A DNA stretch of 20,581 nucleotides from a virus. Location: positions 1 through 20,581 of the IMG/VR virus record IMGVR_UViG_3300024510_000155; one strand, written 5' to 3'. How positions within the stretch are numbered: the first letter of the stretch is position 1; every line of letters begins with the position of its first letter. Below, piece after piece: positions 2,246 to 19,724 of this stretch. A program made the position numbers and the translations under genes. Under the pieces are notes generated by a model, which was not told the origin of the DNA, did no database searches, and saw nothing but the letters and a program-made list of their open reading frames with translations.

Positions 2246-2260
2246 GATTGTTTGACAATC
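2246..2260. promoter_or_regulatory. Inverted repeat with TTGACA, upstream of the DUF4942 gene
   Basis: GATTGT (2246-2251) and ACAATC (2255-2260) form perfect 6-bp arms around TTG. The right half creates TTGACA, a -35-like hexamer, but 17 bases downstream there is only a poor -10 (GATGGT). The 157-bp gap between the RHH-like gene and the DUF4942 gene is larger than elsewhere in this operon, which fits a regulatory site. Which protein binds is unknown. Confidence 0.4.
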
Positions 2261-2275
2261 CACTGCTGTGGTGCG

Positions 2276-2347
2276 ATGGTCTTCCCGTTGGAGCTAATCC
2301 AACACCGACCCGGCGGGACCGGGAAATTGAAAGGCCAGACAGCATGA
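2276..2347 (+). CDS. Possible 23-codon leader peptide
   Basis: A short frame beginning MVFPLELIQHRPGG ends with a TGA that overlaps the ATG of the DUF4942 gene (ATGA at 2344-2347). The same stop/start overlap links most genes in this phage, so a translated leader is plausible. There is no clear Shine-Dalgarno sequence and the frame could be chance. Confidence 0.2.
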   Translation: MVFPLELIQHRPGGTGKLKGQTA

Positions 2348-3174
2348 ACACCACCACCGACCTGGAGCGCCGCAGCACGTTGACCGAGCTTTGCCGCGCT
2401 TGGCAGGACACTGAGCAAGAAATTAAAACCGCCTTCGAGGCCATCGCCCGCGCCGAGGCCCGGCTTGCGGCGGTCTTCGATGGCGGCTCCAACGCCTTCA
2501 GCGTGCAGGAACATCACGGCTACATTGACTGGAAGAACCCGGCCCACTGTCTTGAACGGCTCCAACGTCAGGCATGGCGCGCCATCACTAACCGCCTTGA
2601 GCTGCGGCCGCTGATGAGCTTGGCGCAAATTAAGGAACTGGACGCGCAGATTGAGACGGGCACCGGGCTTCCGCCGATTCGATACGAAGACTTGCTGGCC
2701 ACCGTTGAAGCACTGCACAGCCGGCGCGGTGAATTTCTGCGCGAGAAGGTCCACGAGTGCTATCGCTGGCTTCGCCCGGACTGCTGGAACGCCAACCGAA
2801 AATCCTACTACGAGCCATACAAAACCAACGCCAAGAGCTTCGCGGCGGGCGTTGGGGAAAAGGTCATTATCGAATACGGCGTCGAGCGGGGTTACGGGCG
2901 CGGCTACCGAGTCAACTACCACAAGCGGGACCATCTGCGCGCGTTGGACCAGGTGTTTCATCTTTTGGACGGCAAACCCCAGCCCACCAGCTATCAAGGC
3001 GCGCTGGCCGACGCCATAGACCAGCAAACCAAGCAGAACGACACCAACACAGCCGAGACGGATTACTTCCGCGCCATCTGCTACAAGAACCAAAACCTGC
3101 ATCTGGAATTTAAGCGCAAGGATTTGCTGGACCAGTTCAACGCCATCGCCGGCGGCTTTAATTTGAACGCCTGA
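2344..3174 (+). CDS. DUF4942 family protein
   Basis: The ATG at 2344 has an AAAGG sequence about 11 bases upstream and gives 276 residues; the frame is open further upstream, but that part reads like non-coding DNA. After a helical N-terminus (residues 5-45), the protein shows the features I associate with DUF4942. These are a W..A..Rl.. helical block, a conserved Lys/Tyr-rich stretch (SYYEPYKTNAKSFAAGVGEK, YGRGYRVNYHKRDHLRALDQ), a variable region and a C-terminal signature NLHLEFKRKDLLDQFNAIAG. DUF4942 proteins are found in phages, plasmids and integrative elements, sometimes fused to methyltransferases; no methyltransferase motif is present here. Its biochemical role is not known. It is the largest gene of the early operon and probably acts soon after infection or induction. 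Confidence 0.7.
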   Translation: MNTTTDLERRSTLTELCRAWQDTEQEIKTAFEAIARAEARLAAVFDGGSNAFSVQEHHGYIDWKNPAHCLERLQRQAWRAITNRLELRPLMSLAQIKELDAQIETGTGLPPIRYEDLLATVEALHSRRGEFLREKVHECYRWLRPDCWNANRKSYYEPYKTNAKSFAAGVGEKVIIEYGVERGYGRGYRVNYHKRDHLRALDQVFHLLDGKPQPTSYQGALADAIDQQTKQNDTNTAETDYFRAICYKNQNLHLEFKRKDLLDQFNAIAGGFNLNA

Positions 3175-4951: not shown

Positions 4952-6229
4952 CTATCCTCTCCCCTCTATCCTCTCCGCCACGCGCGCCCACTCCACCGCG
5001 CTCCCACCCCGCAGCGCCTCGGCCCCTATCCATCGGCTCGTGTAGTGGCTCTGCGTCGTCGTGATGCTCCTGTGACGAAGCCAAATCTGAGCCTCCTCCA
5101 GCCGGTAGCGAATCGTCACCTGCCCACCCGCCCAGGAGCGGAGCCCGTGGTTCGTTTTCTGCAATGGCCAGCCCAGCCCGCGCAGCCACTCGCTGACGCG
5201 CCGAAACACCAAGTCGCGCCGCTCCGTCTCCGAGCCATCGAGCACCGAGCCGGCCGCCTGCCATTTCCCCGACGCCCGTGCCCGCGCCTCGAACTGAGCC
5301 CAGAACGGATTCAGCGCCACCACCCGCAGCCGCCCCGTCCCGTTCTTGACCGTCGCCTGCGCGTCGAGCTGGTGGAGACCATCGCGCACCGTGAACCACT
5401 CCCACCGCGCCTGCGCCACCTCGCCGGCCCGCAGGCCAAACGCCAGTTCGAGCCCGACCGCCGCGAACTCGTTCCAGTCCTCCAGCCCCGGCCACGCCGC
5501 GAGCACCCCGGCCATCAGCTCAGGCCCCGGCGGCTCCTGCTCGAGATCCAAGCCCTTGTCGAATCGCTCCGCGTTGCCCTCCGTGACAAACTCCACCACC
5601 TCGGGCACGTTCAGCCCCGCGTCCCGGTATCTGGCCAGCGCCGCCACCTGCACCACGCTCTTGGCCTGATTGAACACCGAATTGGCCGACCGCTTCCGAC
5701 TCGCCGCCGTCACCTGGTCGAGGCTGGCACACTCCCGATTCACCGCATCAAAGAACCTCCGCGCCGTCCGCCCGCACAGCACATCCGCGCTCTCCTCCTC
5801 GGGGGCCGCAAAGCCCGCGCGCCGCAGGACATTCGCCAGCGCATTCGCCGCCGCCCGCTGATGTCCATCAGTGATGCCCAGCTCCAACCCGCGCCAGGCA
5901 TCGAGCAACTCGCCCACCGTCGCCCAGTGCCGCCGCTTCTTGTTCGAGTCCACAATGCCCCATTCCTTGTCGAGCGCCGGCTGGATGAACTTCACCTTGG
6001 CCACCTGCTTGGCCGTCTCCGCCTCGTTGGTGCCCAGCGCGTGGTTGAACCGCTTGCCGTTGATGGTCCCGACCAGATACCACGGCGCAAACTTCCCAGC
6101 CCACCGCTGCCTCAAAGTGAACTCGCGCCCCGCCACCCGGAACTTCACCTTGCCCAGCTTCGGCTCCGGGTTGGTGCTTGGTGCGTCTGTTTGGTGCGTG
6201 TTCTGGTGCGCAATCATGGTTCCAAACAT
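4952..6229 (-). CDS. int: Tyrosine site-specific integrase
   Basis: The ATG at 6229 is preceded by a good Shine-Dalgarno sequence (GGAAGCGGA) and gives 425 residues. The frame is open further, to a TTG at 6334, but that start has no support. The N-terminal part (about 25-90) is a plausible arm-binding domain with beta strands (KVKFRVAGREFTLRQRW); a helical core-binding domain follows, then the catalytic domain. Catalytic residues by eye: Arg in GLRAGE (about 264), Lys in TVKNGTG (about 293), His and Arg in HGLRSWAG (about 360-363), His in WLRHRS (about 385) and Tyr in QSHYT (about 394). All six of the R-K-H-R-H-Y set are present, so it should be active in strand exchange between attP and the host tRNA-Lys gene. 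It lies next to attP, as integrases usually do. Confidence 0.92.
   Translation of the reverse strand: MFGTMIAHQNTHQTDAPSTNPEPKLGKVKFRVAGREFTLRQRWAGKFAPWYLVGTINGKRFNHALGTNEAETAKQVAKVKFIQPALDKEWGIVDSNKKRRHWATVGELLDAWRGLELGITDGHQRAAANALANVLRRAGFAAPEEESADVLCGRTARRFFDAVNRECASLDQVTAASRKRSANSVFNQAKSVVQVAALARYRDAGLNVPEVVEFVTEGNAERFDKGLDLEQEPPGPELMAGVLAAWPGLEDWNEFAAVGLELAFGLRAGEVAQARWEWFTVRDGLHQLDAQATVKNGTGRLRVVALNPFWAQFEARARASGKWQAAGSVLDGSETERRDLVFRRVSEWLRGLGWPLQKTNHGLRSWAGGQVTIRYRLEEAQIWLRHRSITTTQSHYTSRWIGAEALRGGSAVEWARVAERIEGRG
6171..6210. promoter_or_regulatory. Integrase arm-type repeat cluster, left arm of attP
   Basis: TTGGTGC occurs at 6171-6177, 6178-6184 and 6191-6197, and a related CTGGTGCG at 6203-6210, all in the same orientation. 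The same motif recurs on the other side of the core at 6468-6488. Short repeats on both sides of a tRNA-derived core are what heterobivalent integrases bind as arm sites. These four lie inside the first codons of int, so integrase binding could also affect its own expression. Confidence 0.6.
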
Positions 6230-6374
6230 TCCGCTTCCGAGCGACGTTCGGCAAGCCAATTTCCGCCGCTGACCTTGATTCAGCCGCGACGCGCCCCTCA
6301 CAAACCCCCTGCAAACATTGAATAAACCGCACAAAACGCCAACAAAACCGGGGAGAATACGAAGGAGGAAAGAT

Positions 6375-6420
6375 TGGTGCCCCGGGTAGGACTCGAACCT
6401 ACGACCAATTGATTAAGAGG
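6375..6420 (-). other. attP: attP core: 3' half of a tRNA-Lys (CTT) gene
   Basis: Read on the minus strand, this 46-bp segment matches the tRNA-Lys pattern from the anticodon loop (CTCTTAA, anticodon CTT at 6417-6415) through the variable region, a perfect T arm (GTAGG TTCGAGT CCTAC), the acceptor strand CCGGGGC, discriminator A and an encoded CCA. The 5' half of the tRNA is absent: the bases before the anticodon loop do not pair with TCAAT of the anticodon stem. This is the usual form of a phage attachment core that restores the tRNA 3' end on integration. The host attB is therefore predicted to be a tRNA-Lys(CTT) gene. Confidence 0.88.
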
Positions 6421-6435
6421 GCAGCGGACACCCCG

Positions 6436-6474
6436 AAAAACACCAGCGTTTCGCGCAAATCCGGCGCTTTGGTG
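6436..6474 (-). terminator. Rho-independent terminator of the late operon
   Basis: On the minus strand, CACC-AA-AGCG (6474-6465) pairs with CGCTGGTG (6448-6441), an 8-bp stem with a two-base bulge and a 16-base loop, followed at once by TTTTT (6440-6436). It lies 12 bases after the stop of the giant virion gene. One stem arm overlaps an arm-type repeat. Confidence 0.65.
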
Positions 6475-6488
6475 CGTGAGTTGGTGCT
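6468..6488. promoter_or_regulatory. Integrase arm-type repeats, right arm of attP
   Basis: TTTGGTGCGTG at 6468-6478 is identical to 6190-6200 in the left arm, and TTGGTGCT at 6481-6488 is identical to 6171-6178. The second overlaps the stop codon of the giant virion gene. Orientation is the same as in the left arm. Confidence 0.6.
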
Positions 6489-9400
6489 ACTTCTTGGGCT
6501 TCGGCTCGTCGTGCTGCTGGAGGCCCCAGCCGAAGAGGGAGAGGATGCCCAGGGCGGTGCCTTTGGGAACGCCGTCTTCAAGCATGACCTTGTAAATATC
6601 CTCGAAGGAGAGCGGGACGGCAAGGCGCGAAAGTGTGGCCGTGGGCGTCGTCTTCTCGCCGATGACGTTCTCGCCTGTCCGAAGGTCCACCGCTGCGCCA
6701 ACCACAGGCGAGAGCTTGGTGCGGAGGAATTTGGTCAGGACATCCCAGGCCGTGTCCGCACCATAAGGCAGGTCGCCGTAAAGTGAACGCACTTTGCCGG
6801 CCTGCGTCTTGGTCTCGCCTGTAATCTCCCGCGAGAGCAAGACGGTAGCCTGCGCAAGTCCGGACAGCGGATCCACGCGGGTGTTGCCGAAGCGCAGCTT
6901 GCCGAAGTCTGATGAGCGCGGGTCTGTCTCAATCTCCGCGCCGGCCATGTTCGCCAGCGCATAGACGACGGCGAGGCCACCGAGGAATCCGGCGTATTCT
7001 GCGGCGACCGCGCGCGCCACGCGGGCGCTGCCGGCCTTGCGGAGCGGCTGGCCGGTGACGAGCTGGAAGCGGCTCAACACAAGGCGCGGAGAAAAGAACA
7101 CGGTGGCGAGCGTCTCGGCGGCGGCGGCGTGCTTGCCCATGTTGCCGCGCCCGGTGGACACGTTGATGAAGTTGCCCACGGCTTGCAGCTCCAAGTCCGT
7201 CAGCGGCGTTCCCTTGGCCTGGAGCCGGTCCACCAGCGCGTCAAAGCTGTCGGCGCGGAGCTTGTTGAGGAAGGTGATGTAGGCCCGCTCCGAGGAGCGC
7301 ACTCCGGGCATGACGCGGGAGAGGCGCGACATGTAAATCTCCTCCATCGCGGTGAGCTTGGACGTGTCCAGCGGCGCGAGGAAGAGCTTGGCGCGGGCGT
7401 AGAGTGGCGCGTTTGGGCGGTCGCGGATTTCCTTGTCCACCATGTGCGCGCGCGTCTCGCTGGCCAAGGCGCGAAACATCGGTGCCAGCCCCGACGCGGC
7501 CCGCCGCCAGTTCATCGGGTTGAGCGTGATGAAGCCGCCTTGCCGCAGCACCGCCGACACGTCCCACGAGGCCAGCACGGCGCGGGGCACGTTCAGCACT
7601 TCCTTGGCGTGCTCGATGGCGCGCTTGGTCGGGGAGAGGCGATGGAAGCGGTCGCGCTCCAGACCTTCGCGCCACTTGGCTTTCTCCATCTCGGCCTGCG
7701 CCCGGAGCCGGAGCGTGGTCGGGTCCGTCGGGACGGGCTTGCGGACGCGTGGGGCGAAGTCACCACGGGCGAGGCGGTCGGCGTATTCGGCGGCGGAGGT
7801 GGTGAGGCGGGTGTGCAGCGCCTTCAAGGCCCGCTCCTCGGGCGTGAGCTTGGGCTTGCGCGCCTCGGCCAGCCGGCGGTTCACGTCGTCGAGTTTCTGC
7901 CGTGCCATCTCCAAGGCCGGGTCGGCCAACGGCCGAGCCACCTTCGCGCGCGACTCGGTGGACAAGTCCCCTGCCGCCAGCTTGGCCTCGCGCTCGGCGA
8001 TGGACTCCTCCATCGCAGCCAGCCGGCGGGCGACGTTCTCCGCGTGCTTCTGTTCCCACGGCTTCTTGCGCGCCTCGGCCAGTTGCCGGTTCAGCGCGTC
8101 GCGCTTCTGCATCAGCTCCTCCAGCGCGGGGTCTGCCGGGCGTGACACCGCGCGGCCAGCCGGCGGCTTCGGGCCTTCGGCAATCTGCTTCTCCTTGGCG
8201 GCGATGGCTTCCTCCAGCGCGGACTTCTGCCGAGTCAAAGCAGCTTCCGCCTGCTGCCGTTGGAATTCCCCGTCCAGCTCGCGCAACTCCTGCCACTCGG
8301 CGCGCACGGCGTCGCGCCGCGCCTTGAGCGCGGCCAGCTCGGGGCTGGTGATGTCCGGCTTGGCCCGCTTGAGGTTCATCTCGCCGCCGGCAATGCGCGC
8401 CTCGTAGTCGGCGATGCTGCGCTCCACGTTGCGCATGGCCAGCTCCAGCAGTTGCGCGTCGGTGCGGCCGGGCTTGGGAACCAGTTCGTCGAGCTGGGCG
8501 CGCAGGGCGTCGCGGCGAGCTTCGAGCAGCTTGGTCTCGGCGTCGAAAGGCGCGTCCGTCTTGGACTTCACGATGCGCTCCTTGGTGGCAATCTGGTATT
8601 CGAGGTCCGCCACCTGGTGCTTGAGCCGGGTGCGGACGGCATCCAGCGCGCTCTTGAGCTGCCGGGCCGGGTCCGTGACCACCACGCCGAAGCGGCGCTT
8701 GGCCTCGTTCACCTGTTGGATGAGCCGGCGCTCCTCGTCGCTCTGGGTGCGCCGCTCCACGCCGGTCTTCTGCAACGGCTTCTTGGCCGTGATGTCTTCG
8801 AGCTTGGCCACCTGCTGCATCTGGCCCTTGAGGTCGCGGAGCTGCGCCTTGGCCGCGTCGGCATCCAGCGGTTTGAAGCGGCCGTAGCCGCTGATGGCGT
8901 CCATCGTCTCGCGCCGGCTCAACTCCATGCCGATGTCCTCGGTGAGCACCTTGTGGACGGCATCCACCAGCGCGTTGCGCTCGGTGACGCCACCGCGAAC
9001 AAAGGACAAGGCCAGCTTGCGCACGTAGTCGCCGAGCAGGCCGACGGGCAACCCTTCCGCCACGCCCTTCTTCAGTCCCTCGATGACGCCCTCGCGCCGG
9101 CCCGTCTCGTCGCGCTTGCGCAGGAGCCGCTTCACCGGCTCGGACTTGTCGCCATACTTCGCGCCCTCGTTCTCCAGATGCAGGTTGGCGCGGTCCCAGG
9201 CGGCTTGGAGGTAAGGCTTCACGCCGTCGCCGAACTCGGCGGCCATCTCGATGCTGAACTTGGAGAAGTCCAGCCCGAGGCGCGCAATCTTGGCCGCGCC
9301 GATGACGCCGAGGTGGTAGATGTCCTCCGGCGTGGGGGAAAGGAACTTGCCCTTGAGGAACGCGCGCGACTTCTCCGCCTGCTTCTCCAGCTTGCCAACA

Positions 9401-12774: not shown

Positions 12775-14085
12775 TCAACGTCCCAGTGCGCGGGCCGCTG
12801 CCCCGGAGCCATACTTGGCATCGAACGCCTCGCGCAGGCCGGGATTGGCGCGCAGGAACTCGACCGCACCACTCGGCGGTGCTACCGGAGCCGGGCCGGA
12901 GGCCGGCGCGGCGGGCGCGGGTGTGGCGGACGGACCGGCTTCCGCTTCGAGCCGGGCAATCTCGTCCTGCTTGCGCTTGATTTGGTTGCGCACTTGGAAG
13001 TAGGCCGCGCCGGTGAGCTTGGGCGATTTGTCCGGGTTCACCTCGGAGAGCTTGGCGGTGAGGTCGGCGATGTCCTTCTCGTTGTCGCGCACGATGCGGT
13101 GCCGCTCGATGTCTGTCATAGGCCGGGCGGTGCGGGCAGCGGCGTCCTTCTCCGAATACTTGCGGTTGGTCGGGGAGAACTCCGGGAAGAACTGCGCGCC
13201 GTTGGGACCCACGCGACCCACGGGCATCTCCACCTTCGTGCCGTCGGACATCGTGACCGTCTGCGTGCTGAGTGAAGGTGAGAAGGTTGAGCCGGGCTGC
13301 ATCCCACCCAAGGAGCGCAAAAGGTTGTCCAAGTTCGGGTCTTGGCGGGTGCGCGGAAACTGGCTCATGCCCTCGATGGCAGCCATGTCGAGCGGGATGG
13401 TCGGCCCCATGCCCGCCGGAGCGGTCACACGGGGAGCGACGTAGTTCCAGAAACCGGCCACATCCTTGTCCACCGCCTGCTTCTCGCGGAGGGCGGCAGC
13501 GCGTTGCGCCAGCGTGTCCGCGTGAATCTTCTCGGCCAGGGCGGTGCTGCGCTCGGCGCGGGCGTCCGCGCCCATCTGGCGCACATTCTCGAAGCTGCGC
13601 TGGCCGGCATCCCGCATGTCCAGCAGCCAGTTGCGGTCATTCGTGATCCGGTGCTGCTGCTTCAGCTCGTCAAACTGCGCCTGCCGGTCTTGGTTTTCGA
13701 GCAGCTTGTCTTGCTTTGCCTCCTTGCGGCGTTGCTCCTGCTCCTTCTGACCAATAAATTGCTCTGCATCCACCAGCACCGCCTTCTTCTTGGCCAGCGG
13801 CAGGTTGGTGAAGTTGGAAAGGTTGGCGGCGAGCTTGGCGGCGGGGCTGTTCTCATCGGCTAAGTTCTCGTATTGGGCAAACTTCTGGAGTGAAGGCCCA
13901 AGGCTTTCCACCCGCTGAGTGACGAACTGGTCCTCTGCCTTCTGTGCCGCATACCGTTGCAAGCCTTCGGTGATGGCATTGCCCGCCTGACTGATGCCTT
14001 GGGCGAGGAACTGCCCACCTTGAAACGTGACGCCGGGGTTGTAGGCGCTGTTGGTTTCCTGCTGGGGGGTGTGGAGTGAGCGCAT
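12775..14085 (-). CDS. Internal virion-like coiled-coil protein
   Basis: The ATG at 14085, four bases after the upstream stop, gives 436 residues; the open frame extends upstream, but that part is an Arg/Thr/Ser-rich shadow of the neighbouring gene. The N-terminus (NPGVTFQGGQFLAQGISQAG) is followed by about 250 residues of mostly charged helix with Lys/Glu/Gln-rich coiled-coil stretches (QEQRRKEAKQDKLLENQDRQ). After a middle with beta character (about 240-320) come another coiled coil and a Pro/Ala linker. The final domain, EFLRANPGLREAFDAKYGSG, is a C-terminal motif I associate with podovirus internal or ejection proteins. Placed between a gp14-like protein and the giant protein, it probably forms part of the ejection apparatus. 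Confidence 0.55.
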   Translation of the reverse strand: MRSLHTPQQETNSAYNPGVTFQGGQFLAQGISQAGNAITEGLQRYAAQKAEDQFVTQRVESLGPSLQKFAQYENLADENSPAAKLAANLSNFTNLPLAKKKAVLVDAEQFIGQKEQEQRRKEAKQDKLLENQDRQAQFDELKQQHRITNDRNWLLDMRDAGQRSFENVRQMGADARAERSTALAEKIHADTLAQRAAALREKQAVDKDVAGFWNYVAPRVTAPAGMGPTIPLDMAAIEGMSQFPRTRQDPNLDNLLRSLGGMQPGSTFSPSLSTQTVTMSDGTKVEMPVGRVGPNGAQFFPEFSPTNRKYSEKDAAARTARPMTDIERHRIVRDNEKDIADLTAKLSEVNPDKSPKLTGAAYFQVRNQIKRKQDEIARLEAEAGPSATPAPAAPASGPAPVAPPSGAVEFLRANPGLREAFDAKYGSGAAARALGR

Positions 14086-14089
14086 AGGT

Positions 14090-15007
14090 TCAGGGTGTCT
14101 TGCGGAAGAGTCCGCCCATGAAGCCGCCAGCGGCCGCGCCGGCGGGGCCGCCCAGCAGCCCACCGCCGATGGTGCCCAGCGCGCCGAGGCCCGCGCCAAG
14201 GATACCCGAGTTCTGGTTCGCACCGGCGATGTTGGCCGCGTTCTGCGCGTTGGCATTGAAGCCGTAGGCGTTGCCGAAGTAGCTGCTGTAGGGGTCGAAC
14301 ACTTGGTCCGGGCCGACGCCGGATGCCGTCTGGTAAAGCCCCTGCGGGTTGCTTCCGCTGGGACGGCCAAGGATTTGCTGGAAGGGGTCGCCGTAGAACG
14401 ACTGGTTCAGCCCGATAGCCTGCGACGCTCCACGGATGCGGTCTTCGTAGAGTCCGCGCTGGCGGTCGCCCAGATACATGGCCTCTTGGAAGGCGTCGGT
14501 CGGACCCATGCCCATGCCGCGCACGCTTTGCGCCCCGCGCACGTTCTGCTCGGCTCCGCGCCGCTGGCTGGCGCTCATGGCGTAGGGGTCGGCCAGCTCC
14601 TCCATCCGCAGCGCGTTGATGCGCTTGAGCATGGCCGCACCCTCGGGATTGAGCTGGTCGTAGGCCGTGCGGGAAGCCCCGGCGAGGTTGTTCACGTCGG
14701 CGATGTCCCCGGCGCGCTGGTCGGTGAGTCCGCGCCGGGCAATACGGTCCATCTCCGGGCCGGACTCGGCCATGAGGGCGAGCATTCCGTTGTTGCCCCG
14801 GTCGCCGTAGAGAGCGGCGCGGGCGGTGTCGTTGTCGAGCTGGGTGTATTGCGGGCGATACTCACGCTCGATGTTGATGCGCGGGCCAATGTCCTTGAAC
14901 GCGCCGGTGCCCTTCTCCATTTCGAGCTGCGCGCGCAGCGTATTAACGGTCTCAGCGACCGGGTCACGAGTGACAACGGGGGGCGGGTCAGGTGCGTAGA
15001 GTCCCAT
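14090..15007 (-). CDS. Internal virion-like protein with glycine-rich hydrophobic C-terminus
   Basis: This 305-residue protein has an ATG three bases after the previous stop. Residues 1-200 are polar and helical, with RNA/DNA-binding-like Arg residues and a Tyr/Gly/Asn-rich middle (FDPYSSYFGNAYGFNANAQN). The C-terminal 45 residues form a hydrophobic glycine-zipper-like stretch (GILGAGLGALGTIGGGLLGG, PAGAAAGGFMGGLF). Such tails occur in small podovirus internal virion proteins (roles like T7 gp14 or P22 gp7), which insert into the host envelope during DNA ejection. The assignment rests on this tail and on gene order, immediately before the coiled-coil and giant proteins. Confidence 0.6.
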   Translation of the reverse strand: MGLYAPDPPPVVTRDPVAETVNTLRAQLEMEKGTGAFKDIGPRINIEREYRPQYTQLDNDTARAALYGDRGNNGMLALMAESGPEMDRIARRGLTDQRAGDIADVNNLAGASRTAYDQLNPEGAAMLKRINALRMEELADPYAMSASQRRGAEQNVRGAQSVRGMGMGPTDAFQEAMYLGDRQRGLYEDRIRGASQAIGLNQSFYGDPFQQILGRPSGSNPQGLYQTASGVGPDQVFDPYSSYFGNAYGFNANAQNAANIAGANQNSGILGAGLGALGTIGGGLLGGPAGAAAGGFMGGLFRKTP

Positions 15008-15010
15008 AGG

Positions 15011-15475
15011 TCAGGTTTCAGGTTTCAAGAGCAGCTCGCGGACTTGAAGAGAAATTTGGCGGCGATGCTCGTATCCACCCACGAGATAGGCCACGAGCAG
15101 GCCCAGCTCGGTGAGGTAATCGCGGAAGACCAGCGCGTGCTGGCGGCGGATGTCTTGGTGCGCCAACCACGCATCGGCATCCTGCCAGGCGTTGAGCGTG
15201 GCGCTGTGCATGGCAATGAGCGCGTCGCGGTTCCGCTGGAAGAAAGCATTGGCAGGCAGCTCAACCAGCAGCACATGAAAGAGCCGGTGATATTCGACCG
15301 GGCCGTGGTCCGCGTCCACGGCGTCATCCATGAGCCGGGCCGCATAGCAAATGGCCTGCATGTAGCCCAAGGCCGCAAGGTCACTGCCAGCGATAAGCGC
15401 ACACACCCGGCGCACGCGCTCTTCGTAGCTGGCCGAGGCGGTCTGGCGGATGGGGGTCTGGAGTTCAGCGGTCAT
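15011..15475 (-). CDS. Small helical phage protein of unknown function
   Basis: The ATG at 15475 overlaps the stop of the tail fibre gene by one base (TGATG), giving 154 residues; a longer frame would overlap the fibre gene by 67 bases and is less likely. The protein appears all-helical, with an acidic motif, AARLMDDAVDADHGPVEY, near residue 50. It continues LFHVLLVELPANAFFQRNRD, then a Trp-rich helix, NAWQDADAWLAHQD. The NAFF..N pattern followed by AW.D is familiar to me from unannotated phage proteins, but no function is known to me. Position between fibre and internal virion genes suggests a structural, assembly or chaperone role. Confidence 0.55.
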   Translation of the reverse strand: MTAELQTPIRQTASASYEERVRRVCALIAGSDLAALGYMQAICYAARLMDDAVDADHGPVEYHRLFHVLLVELPANAFFQRNRDALIAMHSATLNAWQDADAWLAHQDIRRQHALVFRDYLTELGLLVAYLVGGYEHRRQISLQVRELLLKPET

Positions 15476-16992
15476 CAGATGGTGTAGCGGCGCAAGGTGA
15501 GTCGAAACATGTTCAATCCAGCGGTGTAGGTCTTCCACCAAATCGTTTGCGAGGTCTTCAGCGGCACGAGGTCAAACGGATGACCGCTGAGAAACGTGTC
15601 AATCGAGGTTCCAACGTCAGCCACAACTGAGCCCCAGACGCACGCGCACACTGTCGTGCCACCGCTTTCACCCGCGACCGCCATTTGGTTGTCGTTGTTT
15701 GTGCCGGCGGCGGCACTGCGGCCCATTGTGCCGGCCACCGCTTTGGCAATCGGCGGCACAATCGCGGCTATATTGGCGCTGGTCCACGCATTGTTGCTGC
15801 CCGTTTGGTTATTGAAGATTAGGCTGCTGGCGTTCGTTTCATCAAGCCACACCACGCGGTCCGCCTGATACATGGTGTCAAAGTCGCTGCCGGAGTCGTT
15901 GAAGACCGCGCCAAGAAGGGCTTTGTAGGTGTAGCCGGACGGCAGCGCGGCGGTCTCGACTGGATTGATGGTGCTCAACAGGGCGCTCGTGGTGGTGCCG
16001 TTGCTGATGGCCCACACGTAATACCAAGTCGTTGACTGCTCGGTGCCCGGCTCCGTGCCACCCGCGGCGCGGCCGTTGGCCCCGGTGGTAGCAACGCCTG
16101 CGGTCAGGCTGACAGCGGACGCCAACACACTGTCTCCACTTGCGTTCTTCAGCACAATTTCATCCGCCGTGATGGTGAGCTGATACGTCGGGTTGGTCGA
16201 ATGGTTCTTAATAAAAAGCCCTCGGGCAACGTCGCGGACCACCGCCGGCGTGCCGTTTGCAACGGGACTTTGTAGCTGGAAGCTGGTGCCGTCATACACC
16301 ACTGTCACCCACTGGCCGGCCTTGATGTCGCCGTCCGCAAGCGTTTGGTTGTAGCTTTTGACGATGGTTTTGGCGCTACCCAAGCCGCTGACTTGCAACG
16401 TGGCGGCTTCCGAGTTGATGGTGTTGGCCTTGAAGACAACGGGCACGCCGGTTAGGTCGGAGTAGGCGCGCACGCTGGGCGTGGGCGTGATGGCGTAGGC
16501 GTCCGTGCTGCCGGCATCAATGCCGACCACCACCTGCGAGCTGCCCAATGCCGAAAGCAACTGCCAGCGGATGCCGTCGTAAATGACCTCGCAATTCTGC
16601 CCAGCCCGCAAGTCGCCAGCCGCCAGCTCTACCCCAGCGGCGGTCGTAGAGTTGTAGTAGCGGAACAAGTCCTTGGTGCTGCCGCCAAACGTAATATCCA
16701 CCGCTCCAGTGTTGTCCGTTGCAACCTTAAAGCGGGCAATCATGCCCTCGACCAGTGTGATGGTGTGGCCCGAGGCCGTAAGCGTAATGGTGTTGGTGCC
16801 ACTGGCGGAGCAGTAAAACCACGCTCCAAAGGCTGCCTTCGCGGCAGTCACGGCGTCGTCCGTGATTTGCGACGTGTCCGCCGTGCCGCTCAACGTGACC
16901 GTGGGCGCGAAGCCCTGGTTGAGCTTCGAGTTCGTGACGCGCTCGGTGCCCACGAGCGTCTTGGCCGGCGTGACGGTTGCGGTAAGTGCCAT
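15475..16992 (-). CDS. Tail fibre protein
   Basis: This 505-residue protein starts three bases after the nozzle gene stop. The N-terminus (ALTATVTPAKTLVGTERVTN) is Thr/Val-rich, as in proteins that attach to a tail. Two similar beta-rich units follow, at about residues 55-150 and 151-245. Each has the pattern ending in GD.+AGQ..EV/TVVYDG..+QL (AAGDLRAGQNCEVIYDGIRW and DGDIKAGQWVTVVYDGTSFQ), a repeat known from phage fibres. The C-terminal half is Ser/Thr/Ala/Gly-rich with a possible trimeric tip (SGHPFDLVPLKTSQTIWWKT). It probably recognises the host surface. Low charge, few Lys and many Thr/Ser fit a beta-helical or beta-sandwich fibre. Confidence 0.7.
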   Translation of the reverse strand: MALTATVTPAKTLVGTERVTNSKLNQGFAPTVTLSGTADTSQITDDAVTAAKAAFGAWFYCSASGTNTITLTASGHTITLVEGMIARFKVATDNTGAVDITFGGSTKDLFRYYNSTTAAGVELAAGDLRAGQNCEVIYDGIRWQLLSALGSSQVVVGIDAGSTDAYAITPTPSVRAYSDLTGVPVVFKANTINSEAATLQVSGLGSAKTIVKSYNQTLADGDIKAGQWVTVVYDGTSFQLQSPVANGTPAVVRDVARGLFIKNHSTNPTYQLTITADEIVLKNASGDSVLASAVSLTAGVATTGANGRAAGGTEPGTEQSTTWYYVWAISNGTTTSALLSTINPVETAALPSGYTYKALLGAVFNDSGSDFDTMYQADRVVWLDETNASSLIFNNQTGSNNAWTSANIAAIVPPIAKAVAGTMGRSAAAGTNNDNQMAVAGESGGTTVCACVWGSVVADVGTSIDTFLSGHPFDLVPLKTSQTIWWKTYTAGLNMFRLTLRRYTI

Positions 16993-16995
16993 AAA

Positions 16996-19083
16996 TCAGC
17001 CCGAATACTTGGTGCCCATTGTCCGGTCGCCCGGGATGGCGTCCATGTTGACGCTCTTGAGAATGCACCGGCCCTGCGTGTTCGCCAAGGTGAGCTGGCA
17101 GGAATTGCCCCGCTGAACCATTTTCAGGCGAACTAATGAAGTCTGCTGAAGTTGCAGGTTCACACCGCTGCCGAGGTTAAAGCCCGCGCCCAGCGCCACG
17201 CTGTAGTCCTCCCGCCACGGGTCCCCGTGGTCGTCGTTGGCGTTGGTGCTGTCCCATGCCGTTTGGCTGATGGAGTAGGTGGTGTTGCTGCGCGTCTGCG
17301 CGGACGCCACGGTGGTAGTCTCGTTCACGCCGTCCGTGATGCCGGTGAGGGTGAAGCTGGGAGCCCATGTCTCGACCATCGCGGCCACCTGTTGGAAGCG
17401 TTTGCCATCCGGGTCCTGCATGGCGTAGCCCCGCGTGGTGACGCTGGTGCTCACGCTTTGCGTGGTGATTTGGGTGCCAGTCACAAGGTCCACATAAGCC
17501 CAGTCGAACGCGCCGGAGTTCTGGATGGTCACGCCGTTGATGGCAAAGGCGGGCAGGCTGCTCGTGCTGCTGGTCCAGCGGATGCCCCAATCCTGCTGCG
17601 TGACGGTGCCGCCCGTGGCCGCCCACGGGATGGCAGCCCAGCCGGCGAAGAGGTTGGTGCGGGCCAGCGCGGTGGTGCTGGTGCCCCAGGTAAGGCCGCT
17701 GTTCGCGCTGGCGGCCGTGCTGGCGGTCACGAGGTCGCCGCTGGAGGTGTTGAGCTGAAGCGTCTTGTCGGTGTCGGGCTGGCTCTCCACCGTGAGGTCC
17801 ACGTAGGGGTTGGCAATCGTAGTGATGCGTTCGTCCTCGAAGCCTTCTTCCCACAAGCGCAACAGGCCATCAGGCGTCACGGCCACGAGCCGTTGGCGGC
17901 CTTGGATGGTGGCGGTGAGCCACTCCTTCACATGCGTCACGTAGTCCGTCTGGTCCGCGCCCGCCCAAGCGCCGGTGAGGAAGTCATAGACCGCCACGGC
18001 GGTGTTGCAGTTGTAGAACGGCACGTAGTAAAGCGTCGCGGTGGTGGCGGCTCCCAGCGTGCCGTTGAAGACCACGCTGCTGGTGCTGGCGGTGAAGAAG
18101 CCGCTGCGCGTAAGCGTGCTGGCCCCGTTGGTCAGCGTCACCTCATTGGCCCCGAACTCGAAGTAATAGACCGCGCCGCTGGTGACGGAGAGGGAGAGGT
18201 TGCCCGTGACAATGTTGTAGGTGCCGGTGGCAAGGTTGGTGTCAGTATCAATGACCCGGCCATCATCGAGCGGCAGCGCCACGTAGAGCTTGTTGTCCCA
18301 GTAGCCGATGCGGATTTGGTCCCGCAGATTCCAGTTGATGCGCGCCCACGTCGCTGCCAGCGGCGCGGAGAGCGGCAAGTCCACGCCTTTCACGCGGTTC
18401 TCCTCGGTGAGCTGCAAGCTGGTCACGCCCTTGGTGCTGACGTAGAAGAGGTCGCGGCCTACGGGCACCCACGCATTGCGCGCGACCAGACCGTGCGTGC
18501 TGGTCACGAGGTCGGATACGGCGGTCGAGTAGTCCCCGTTGCTGTCCGGCACGAGGTTGTCCACGATGCGGACGGACTTCTGCTTGAAGACCACCATTGA
18601 GATGCGCCCGAACGGCGCGAGGTCCACGATGTCGTCATCCGCCCCGTCGTTAAAGCGAAACGCCTGCTGCGGAAACTTGTAGCGGGTGTAGTTGCCGATG
18701 TCCCCGACCGCCACAAAGTCCTTCTTGGTGCCTTCGTAGATAAACGGCACGAAGACGCGGTTCTGGAAGAAGCGCGCCCCGTCGCTGTTGGGAATCACCT
18801 GCGTGCCCGTGCCGTTGCCGGCGTCGCTGCTGGTCTGCGTGACGGCCACAAAGCCCGCGCCAAAGGTCTCCATCTGGAGCGGGCTGCTGGCGGTGCCGCG
18901 CCAGAGCAGGAGCTTGTCGTAGCATTGCGTGAAGCTGACGTTGCCCGTGATGGTCTCGCCGTTCAGAGAAATCTCGCGGGACACACGGCCCTCCCCCGTG
19001 GCATACACGCGCCCCCCGGCCGCGACGAATATCCATTCCGTCCCGTTCGGGTCCGAGTAAAGAGTGGCTCCTTGAACGCTCAT
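16996..19083 (-). CDS. Tail nozzle / stabilisation protein, beta-propeller part
   Basis: The ATG at 19083 overlaps the preceding stop (ATGA) and gives 695 residues. A repeated propeller-like pattern is visible: SDPNGTEWIFVAAGGRVYAT, FTQCYDKLLLWRG, FFQNRVFVPFIYE and FGRISMVVFKQKSVRIVDN. Next comes the signature STHGLVARNAWVPVGRDLFY with VSTKGVTSL, typical of P22 gp10/T7 gp12-type tail proteins that close the portal channel and form the nozzle. The C-terminal third is a Thr/Ser-rich beta region (TRGYAMQDPDGKRFQQVAAM) that would support the tail hub. The usual N-terminal start of such proteins is not here but in the overlapping upstream gene, so the complete protein seems split in two. Confidence 0.65.
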   Translation of the reverse strand: MSVQGATLYSDPNGTEWIFVAAGGRVYATGEGRVSREISLNGETITGNVSFTQCYDKLLLWRGTASSPLQMETFGAGFVAVTQTSSDAGNGTGTQVIPNSDGARFFQNRVFVPFIYEGTKKDFVAVGDIGNYTRYKFPQQAFRFNDGADDDIVDLAPFGRISMVVFKQKSVRIVDNLVPDSNGDYSTAVSDLVTSTHGLVARNAWVPVGRDLFYVSTKGVTSLQLTEENRVKGVDLPLSAPLAATWARINWNLRDQIRIGYWDNKLYVALPLDDGRVIDTDTNLATGTYNIVTGNLSLSVTSGAVYYFEFGANEVTLTNGASTLTRSGFFTASTSSVVFNGTLGAATTATLYYVPFYNCNTAVAVYDFLTGAWAGADQTDYVTHVKEWLTATIQGRQRLVAVTPDGLLRLWEEGFEDERITTIANPYVDLTVESQPDTDKTLQLNTSSGDLVTASTAASANSGLTWGTSTTALARTNLFAGWAAIPWAATGGTVTQQDWGIRWTSSTSSLPAFAINGVTIQNSGAFDWAYVDLVTGTQITTQSVSTSVTTRGYAMQDPDGKRFQQVAAMVETWAPSFTLTGITDGVNETTTVASAQTRSNTTYSISQTAWDSTNANDDHGDPWREDYSVALGAGFNLGSGVNLQLQQTSLVRLKMVQRGNSCQLTLANTQGRCILKSVNMDAIPGDRTMGTKYSG

Positions 19084-19724
19084 GCGGGTCCGTAGGTCAA
19101 ATAGCCGGTCAAGGTGCCGGTGCTTGTCACGCAATCCACGCGCAAGCAATGGTTTGCCATCTCGTTGTTGAAGACCGCCGGGGCATTCACCCCGAAGGCC
19201 ACCTGAAGCTCCTGGACGGTCACGCCCAAGTTGGACACATAGCTGGTGTTGGCGCGCACGCCGTTGATGATGGCTGACGCCGCATAAACGCCCACCACCC
19301 AGTCATAGGTGCCCCAGCCTTCCGCCCACGGAGCCGGATAGTCGTGGTAGATGCGCACCTGCTGCAAGCTCACCAGCTCCCCGAAGCGAATGCCAATGAC
19401 GGCGTTGTTGCTGCCATCTGGAGTGAATGACCCGGAGCCAGTGCCCACGTAGGCCGCATACGCATTGGGCGGACTGACCTTGAAGACGTGCATCGCGCCC
19501 GTGGTGATGAACGGCGTGCGGCCGTCCGCCTTCATCCACGGCAGGATGGTGATGCCGGCGCGGGGCTCCACGCGGCCGTTGCGGAAGCGGCAGTTGGTGG
19601 CGCTGGCCACCATGCCCGGCGGCAGGATGTCCGGGTCCAGGCGCTCGTCCACGCCCACAAAGCCGCCGTCGCCGTCCTTGAGCGGGGCGTCATCGAGCGG
19701 CCAGTAAGCGCGGTGGCGGTTCAC
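19080..19724 (-). CDS. N-terminal piece of the tail nozzle protein with inserted beta domain
   Basis: The GTG at 19724, four bases after the lipoprotein stop, gives 214 residues. Residues 18-57 (GDGGFVGVDERLDPDILPPG, then NCRFRNGRVEPRAG) match the N-terminus usually seen on nozzle/propeller tail proteins. Instead of continuing into the propeller, the protein has a roughly 140-residue beta-rich part (SLQQVRIYHDYPAPWAEGWG, VVGVYAASAIINGV) that looks like a galactose-binding or discoidin-type sandwich. It stops with a TGA overlapping the ATG of the propeller gene, in the -1 relative frame. The two products may assemble together, or an occasional frameshift may fuse them. The sandwich call is weak. 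Confidence 0.55.
   Translation of the reverse strand: MNRHRAYWPLDDAPLKDGDGGFVGVDERLDPDILPPGMVASATNCRFRNGRVEPRAGITILPWMKADGRTPFITTGAMHVFKVSPPNAYAAYVGTGSGSFTPDGSNNAVIGIRFGELVSLQQVRIYHDYPAPWAEGWGTYDWVVGVYAASAIINGVRANTSYVSNLGVTVQELQVAFGVNAPAVFNNEMANHCLRVDCVTSTGTLTGYLTYGPA

Follow-up and report, generated by a model that had tools for sequence, protein, structure and literature searches.

The stretch of viral DNA analysed here (the window) is 20,581 bp long. Read on the minus strand, a late operon that ends in a gene for a giant protein is followed by an attachment site (attP) and then by an integrase gene, int (Table 1). This is the gene context that had been proposed from the letters, with int to the left of the attP core and the late operon to its right. 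One product of the operon, 717 aa long and encoded at 16996-19149, has a match (E 6e-8) in the head-closure protein of phage C75C1, which has a similar gene order (head closure, tail fibre, giant genes). The other late products encoded in 12775..19724 have no family match in Pfam or PHROG. Since the giant protein and the 717-aa protein match viral or phage sequences, no host gene is seen beside the core on either side. Elsewhere in the window, a gene at 2248-3174 (plus strand) encodes a DUF4942 domain (E 2.8e-34) and shows weak similarity to a PHROG annotated as DNA methyltransferase. Two pairs of direct repeats, 3974-4000/4219-4245 (27 bp) and 4384-4418/4623-4657 (35 bp), are 88-96% identical, lie close to small gene boundaries and are matched in a related contig (L031, see below).

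Table 1. Coordinates of the attP locus and its neighbouring genes in the 20,581-bp window
Feature	Position	Strand	Evidence or remark
Tyrosine-recombinase integrase gene (int), 421 codons	4952..6217	-	PHROG integrase family, E 3.8e-9; catalytic residues
P-side arm (putative): exact GCACCAA at 6171, 6178 and 6191, GCACCAG at 6203-6209	6171..6210	-	Within predicted first codons of int
attP core, 45 bp	6375..6419	-	Exact match to intact tRNA-Lys(CTT) in four Verrucomicrobiota-type genomes and to two other viral contigs
P'-side arm (putative): two GCACCAA sites 12 bp apart (6481-6487, 6469-6475)	6466..6487	-	22 bp identical in L030; conserved in L031
Last late-operon gene, giant protein, 2094 aa	6487..12771	-	27 viral contig loci encode relatives; phage records match in part
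Late genes that precede the giant gene; products of tail or head-completion type	12775..19724	-	Match of the 717-aa product

The predicted start of int is the ATG at 6215-6217, and in-frame starts also exist upstream. The gene next to the core encodes the R-K-HxxR-H-Y residues of a tyrosine recombinase. R262, K290, H356xxR359, H381 and Y391 (numbered on a fragment that starts at residue 2) are invariant in an alignment with four relatives, and from its sequence the enzyme appears to be catalytically complete. It has no match in Pfam, NCBIfam or the PDB, and none among phage and plasmid records; the integrases of two relatives match Pfam weakly. Near the N terminus is a short pattern, WYL..GKR..LGT, which we take to be associated with arm-binding domains. 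The predicted structure has a pLDDT of 36.5, too poor to test for such a domain, so its prediction is drawn from the sequence pattern.

About 160 bp from int lies the core. The minus-strand read of 6375-6419 is CTCTTAATCAATTGGTCGTAGGTTCGAGTCCTACCCGGGGCACCA, which is the 3' half of a tRNA-Lys(CTT) gene from C32 in the anticodon loop to the encoded CCA. It contains the loop C32-T33-CTT-A37-A38, the 3' strand of the anticodon stem (5 bases), a variable loop (5 bases), a perfect 5-bp T stem with a TTCGAGT loop, the 3' acceptor strand, the discriminator A and CCA. The original prediction placed no tRNA 5' half nearby, and indeed that half is absent from the window: neither ARAGORN nor Rfam finds a whole tRNA there. 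A second copy of the core was not found in the 20,581-bp record. Ahead of C32 the phage has gctgcc whereas the host has gttga. Phage-host identity extends from C32 to CCA, which makes the core 45 bp long. Therefore, the identity of the core as tRNA-Lys(CTT) stands, but the length of 46 bp first given to it does not, as base 6420 differs from all of the host genes.

A search of 84,980 species genomes for the exact 45-mer gave four matching genomes, and in all four it forms the 3' portion of an intact tRNA-Lys(CTT) gene whose anticodon is confirmed. This bears out the predicted host integration gene, and it does so in Verrucomicrobiota. By a kinship search, three of the four genomes are members of a single family of Limisphaerales-type Verrucomicrobiota, and the fourth shares their order. 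By title, three are Verrucomicrobia or Limisphaerales and one is Proteobacteria. The record titled Proteobacteria bacterium (L034, RFSE01000135.1) groups with Verrucomicrobiota, being one of the three family members, and shares the tRNA-Lys; its title is probably wrong. A core site with up to two mismatches is found in 6 of 11 genomes of that family and in 1 of 388 in an even sample of the phylum. The GC content of the window (65%) is similar to that of two host contigs. A close integrated copy was not found in the 388 genomes of the phylum, in 293 of the order or in the four that match the tRNA. The sampled genomes held no lysogen with attL and attR, and the best integrase among them is 39% identical. 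This closest cellular relative (L072) has no half tRNA nearby.

Arm-type repeats lie on both sides of the core. Outside the core, TTGGTGC, the reverse complement of the sites in Table 1, has five exact copies on one strand, versus 0.05 expected under a second-order Markov model (0 of 4000 simulations). The single-mismatch version, CTGGTGC, has the same orientation. A sixth exact TTGGTGC, at 6374, is the CCA end of the tRNA. In addition, the 11-mer TTTGGTGCGTG is present at both 6190-6200 and 6468-6478, although 0.007 occurrences are expected per window. Same-orientation repeats that flank the core and share an 11-mer were part of the original prediction, and they are there. The giant gene reaches into this array, with its stop codon (TAG, 6487-6489, minus strand) overlapping the first P'-arm site by one base. 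As in lambda attP, where the core lies between unequal arms that carry repeated arm-type sites, the arms here are unequal and repetitive. Unlike in lambda, the target is a tRNA gene.

The exact core is also present in two other IMG/VR contigs, L031 (integrase about 93% identical) and L030 (about 55%). On one strand, both have the order giant late gene, P' arm, core, P arm and integrase. In all three contigs GCACCAA keeps the same orientation in both arms, with a pair 55-68 bp before the core and, 200-242 bp beyond the start of the core, two or three more copies. The pair is at -68/-56 in the window and L031 and at -67/-55 in L030. The copies after the core start are at +222, +235 and +242 in the window, at +201, +213 and +231 (one mismatched) in L030, and at +210 and +221 (one mismatched) in L031. 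Comparison of the window with L030 gives 22 identical bp in the P' arm and 45 in the core, whereas only about half of the positions match when the 45/46-bp spacer and the flanks are aligned with gaps. Identity of arm and core amid a diverged spacer and flanks looks like the pattern of binding sites under selection, as expected of integrase arm sites.

What if the repeats on the left simply encode a His/Gln/Thr-rich integrase N terminus and bind nothing? In all three contigs they do sit in the predicted start of a coding region (int itself or, in L030, the frame that precedes it). However, the encoded N-terminal peptides are poorly conserved, while the same word in the same orientation recurs across the core in non-coding DNA and is best conserved precisely there. 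A purely coding origin is therefore very improbable. Another possibility is that the half tRNA is the relic of a decayed phage-borne tRNA gene and that integration takes place elsewhere. tRNA genes are common in phages, and a lysogen was not seen in the genomes sampled. Nevertheless, a relic would hardly begin at C32 in every contig, keep 45 bp unchanged while the flanks diverge, or lie so near int within a frame of conserved arm repeats, and a vestigial origin seems extremely unlikely. The claim of a complete attP with a tRNA-Lys(CTT) core and arm-type sites is thus supported, and the best reading of the locus is an attP by which an uncultured Verrucomicrobiota phage would insert into the tRNA-Lys(CTT) gene of its host.

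The late-operon side of the locus is much less constant than attP. The giant proteins that end before attP have 2094 aa in the window and at least 1747 and at least 1738 aa in the other two contigs, and that of the window has no significant similarity to those of L030 or L031. Three unrelated giant proteins (L031:13-5256 and L030:46-5262 in the two relatives) occupy the same position at the end of the late operon, although the integrases of these phages are related. The L030 protein has a helicase C-terminal domain. Homology between the window and L031 crosses the core and the P' arm and breaks at about the stop codon of the giant gene. Therefore, the late gene beside attP has been exchanged at the arm and not at the core. 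An integrase-mediated swap of the late module at the core was considered for this pair and rejected, as the homology extends past the core to the stop codon.

L030 has another peculiarity. Directly before int is a separate 130-aa frame (L030:5884-6276) that is 42% identical to the N-terminal, presumably arm-binding part of the integrase, and the P-arm sites fall in the first codons of this frame. Judged by its sequence, it could be a domain duplication that acts as a competitor or directionality factor. No other viral contig was found to have a stand-alone N-terminal-domain frame of this kind.

A related tRNA-Lys(CTT) half, likewise truncated, is present in six further contigs, where the match to intact genes again begins at C32. 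Five of them, all viral, came from a degenerate search and the sixth is L073, from a metagenome-assembled genome. Two, L073 (integrase 35% identical) and L092, have the half near a related integrase. In L073 it lies about 530 bp upstream of the integrase gene, with phage genes on both sides. Three positions distinguish the half in L073 (contig C163 of bin G421) from the tRNA-Lys(CTT) of the bin itself (C54, L078), which suggests that this phage contig was binned with the wrong host. The viral contigs L088, L089, L090 and L091 have no integrase of the window's family within the stretch read. Because the core of L089 is flanked on each side by CCAGAGTCAAC-type repeats, different integrases seem to use the same tRNA position. 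A DNA search with the att region in phages gave only short matches, covering at most 16% of the query, and mostly to tRNA genes.

Is the DNA integrated or free? Phage genes flank attP in the window, in L030 and in L031. The original prediction regarded the window as a non-integrated phage genome, and the first part of that claim fares better than the second. The record is classed as linear and has no end repeats or circular map, and genes for a terminase, portal or capsid were not recognised in the window. The record is likely to be a fragment and not a whole genome. As for its state, non-integrated DNA is the simplest reading, because phage genes flank one core in three contigs, subject to two caveats. 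The first is that tandem prophages at the same tRNA-Lys gene would have an inner junction with the P'-core-P structure of a free attP, indistinguishable from it by sequence alone. A pair of different prophages could even yield what separates the window from L031, namely a wholly different late gene next to a shared int and attP. However, tandem prophages would be needed for three contigs, and the homology between the window and L031 does not end until the stop codon, beyond the core and P' arm, which places the switch of late genes away from the recombination core. This makes a tandem origin quite improbable. The second caveat is an assembly artefact in which the two ends of an integrated prophage were joined through the 45-bp attL/attR repeat. 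Such a join would rebuild attP exactly. A 45-bp repeat is longer than the short k-mers of common assemblers. Nevertheless, the same arrangement is present in three records, and none of the viral records with the core had a host flank; an artefactual join is improbable. Very probably, then, this attP belongs to a temperate tailed phage of the lambda type whose hosts are Limisphaerales-like Verrucomicrobiota, and it is carried on a non-integrated molecule that would be circularised, replicating or packaged.

How would such an attP work? By the lambda scheme, a predicted N-terminal arm-binding domain of the integrase would occupy the GCACCAA sites while the catalytic domain engages the core. The integrase would thereby bridge arms and core, and strands would be exchanged near the anticodon loop between the phage core and the tRNA-Lys(CTT) gene of the host. 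Integration would rebuild that tRNA, since everything from C32 to CCA comes unaltered with the phage. In the prophage, the rebuilt tRNA-Lys(CTT) gene would stand directly upstream of int on the same strand, and the displaced 3' half would mark the other prophage end, next to the late operon.

This arrangement has precedents. Mycobacteriophage Boilgate, which uses attB-4, has a tyrosine integrase and a core of about 43 bp that comprises a tRNA-Lys 3' half beginning with the anticodon loop (PMC10865867). In mycobacteriophages that integrate in tRNA-Lys, strand exchange takes place at the anticodon-loop end of the core, with the integrase spanning arms and core (PMC10865867). The window resembles Boilgate attP in its tRNA-Lys 3'-half core, in its putative arm-type sites on both sides and in the predicted rebuilding of the tRNA (PMC10865867). 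However, Boilgate targets a Mycobacterium tRNA-Lys(TTT) with five core mismatches, whereas here the gene is tRNA-Lys(CTT), the match is exact over 45 bp and the host is in the Verrucomicrobiota. A different strategy is tRNA-dependent lysogeny, in which a short core breaks the host tRNA and the phage encodes a replacement (PMC10865867). The window does not fit this strategy, as the 45-bp core would restore the tRNA and the 20,581-bp window has no tRNA gene.

The position of the P arm raises the issue of int regulation. In the free phage int is downstream of the late operon, and in the prophage it would be downstream of the host tRNA-Lys gene. A scan for promoters and terminators gave nothing above chance, and no sigma-70-like promoter was recognised between the core and int. 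The nearest parallel is the STI arrangement of KplE1 intS/attL, where the recombination region overlaps the int promoter and leads to negative autoregulation in the tested cases (PMC2951348). As there, the predicted prophage would have the tRNA followed by int in the same direction, and the putative arm sites overlap the start region of int. Unlike in KplE1, they lie within its predicted first codons, and no promoter is recognised. By analogy, negative autoregulation of int through these sites is plausible. Perhaps there is more to it. The first codons of int might double as arm sites. Integration would then give int a new upstream neighbour and so switch its source of transcription, arm binding would turn the gene off, and the 130-aa frame of L030 could serve as a competitor or directionality factor. 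As a whole, this idea is rather unlikely.

Marine metagenomic phages have already been assigned hosts by attP-tRNA identity, including one Verrucomicrobia phage, group G11 (PMC3861242). Like group G11, the window is metagenomic phage DNA in which an integrase gene accompanies a tRNA fragment that matches a host tRNA exactly, although GC content is 43.8% in G11 (PMC3861242) versus 65% here. Assigning hosts in this way is thus established, Verrucomicrobia included, and what is new is another example with a host tag and conserved arms. A phage group without a close integrase in the searched collections of phages and plasmids thereby acquires a concrete host, namely a family of uncultured Limisphaerales-type Verrucomicrobiota, and a concrete insertion gene. 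The 45-bp core occurs rarely enough to serve as a host tag. Finally, the three contigs with conserved arm sites form a small comparative case in which attP is kept while the neighbouring late genes swap.
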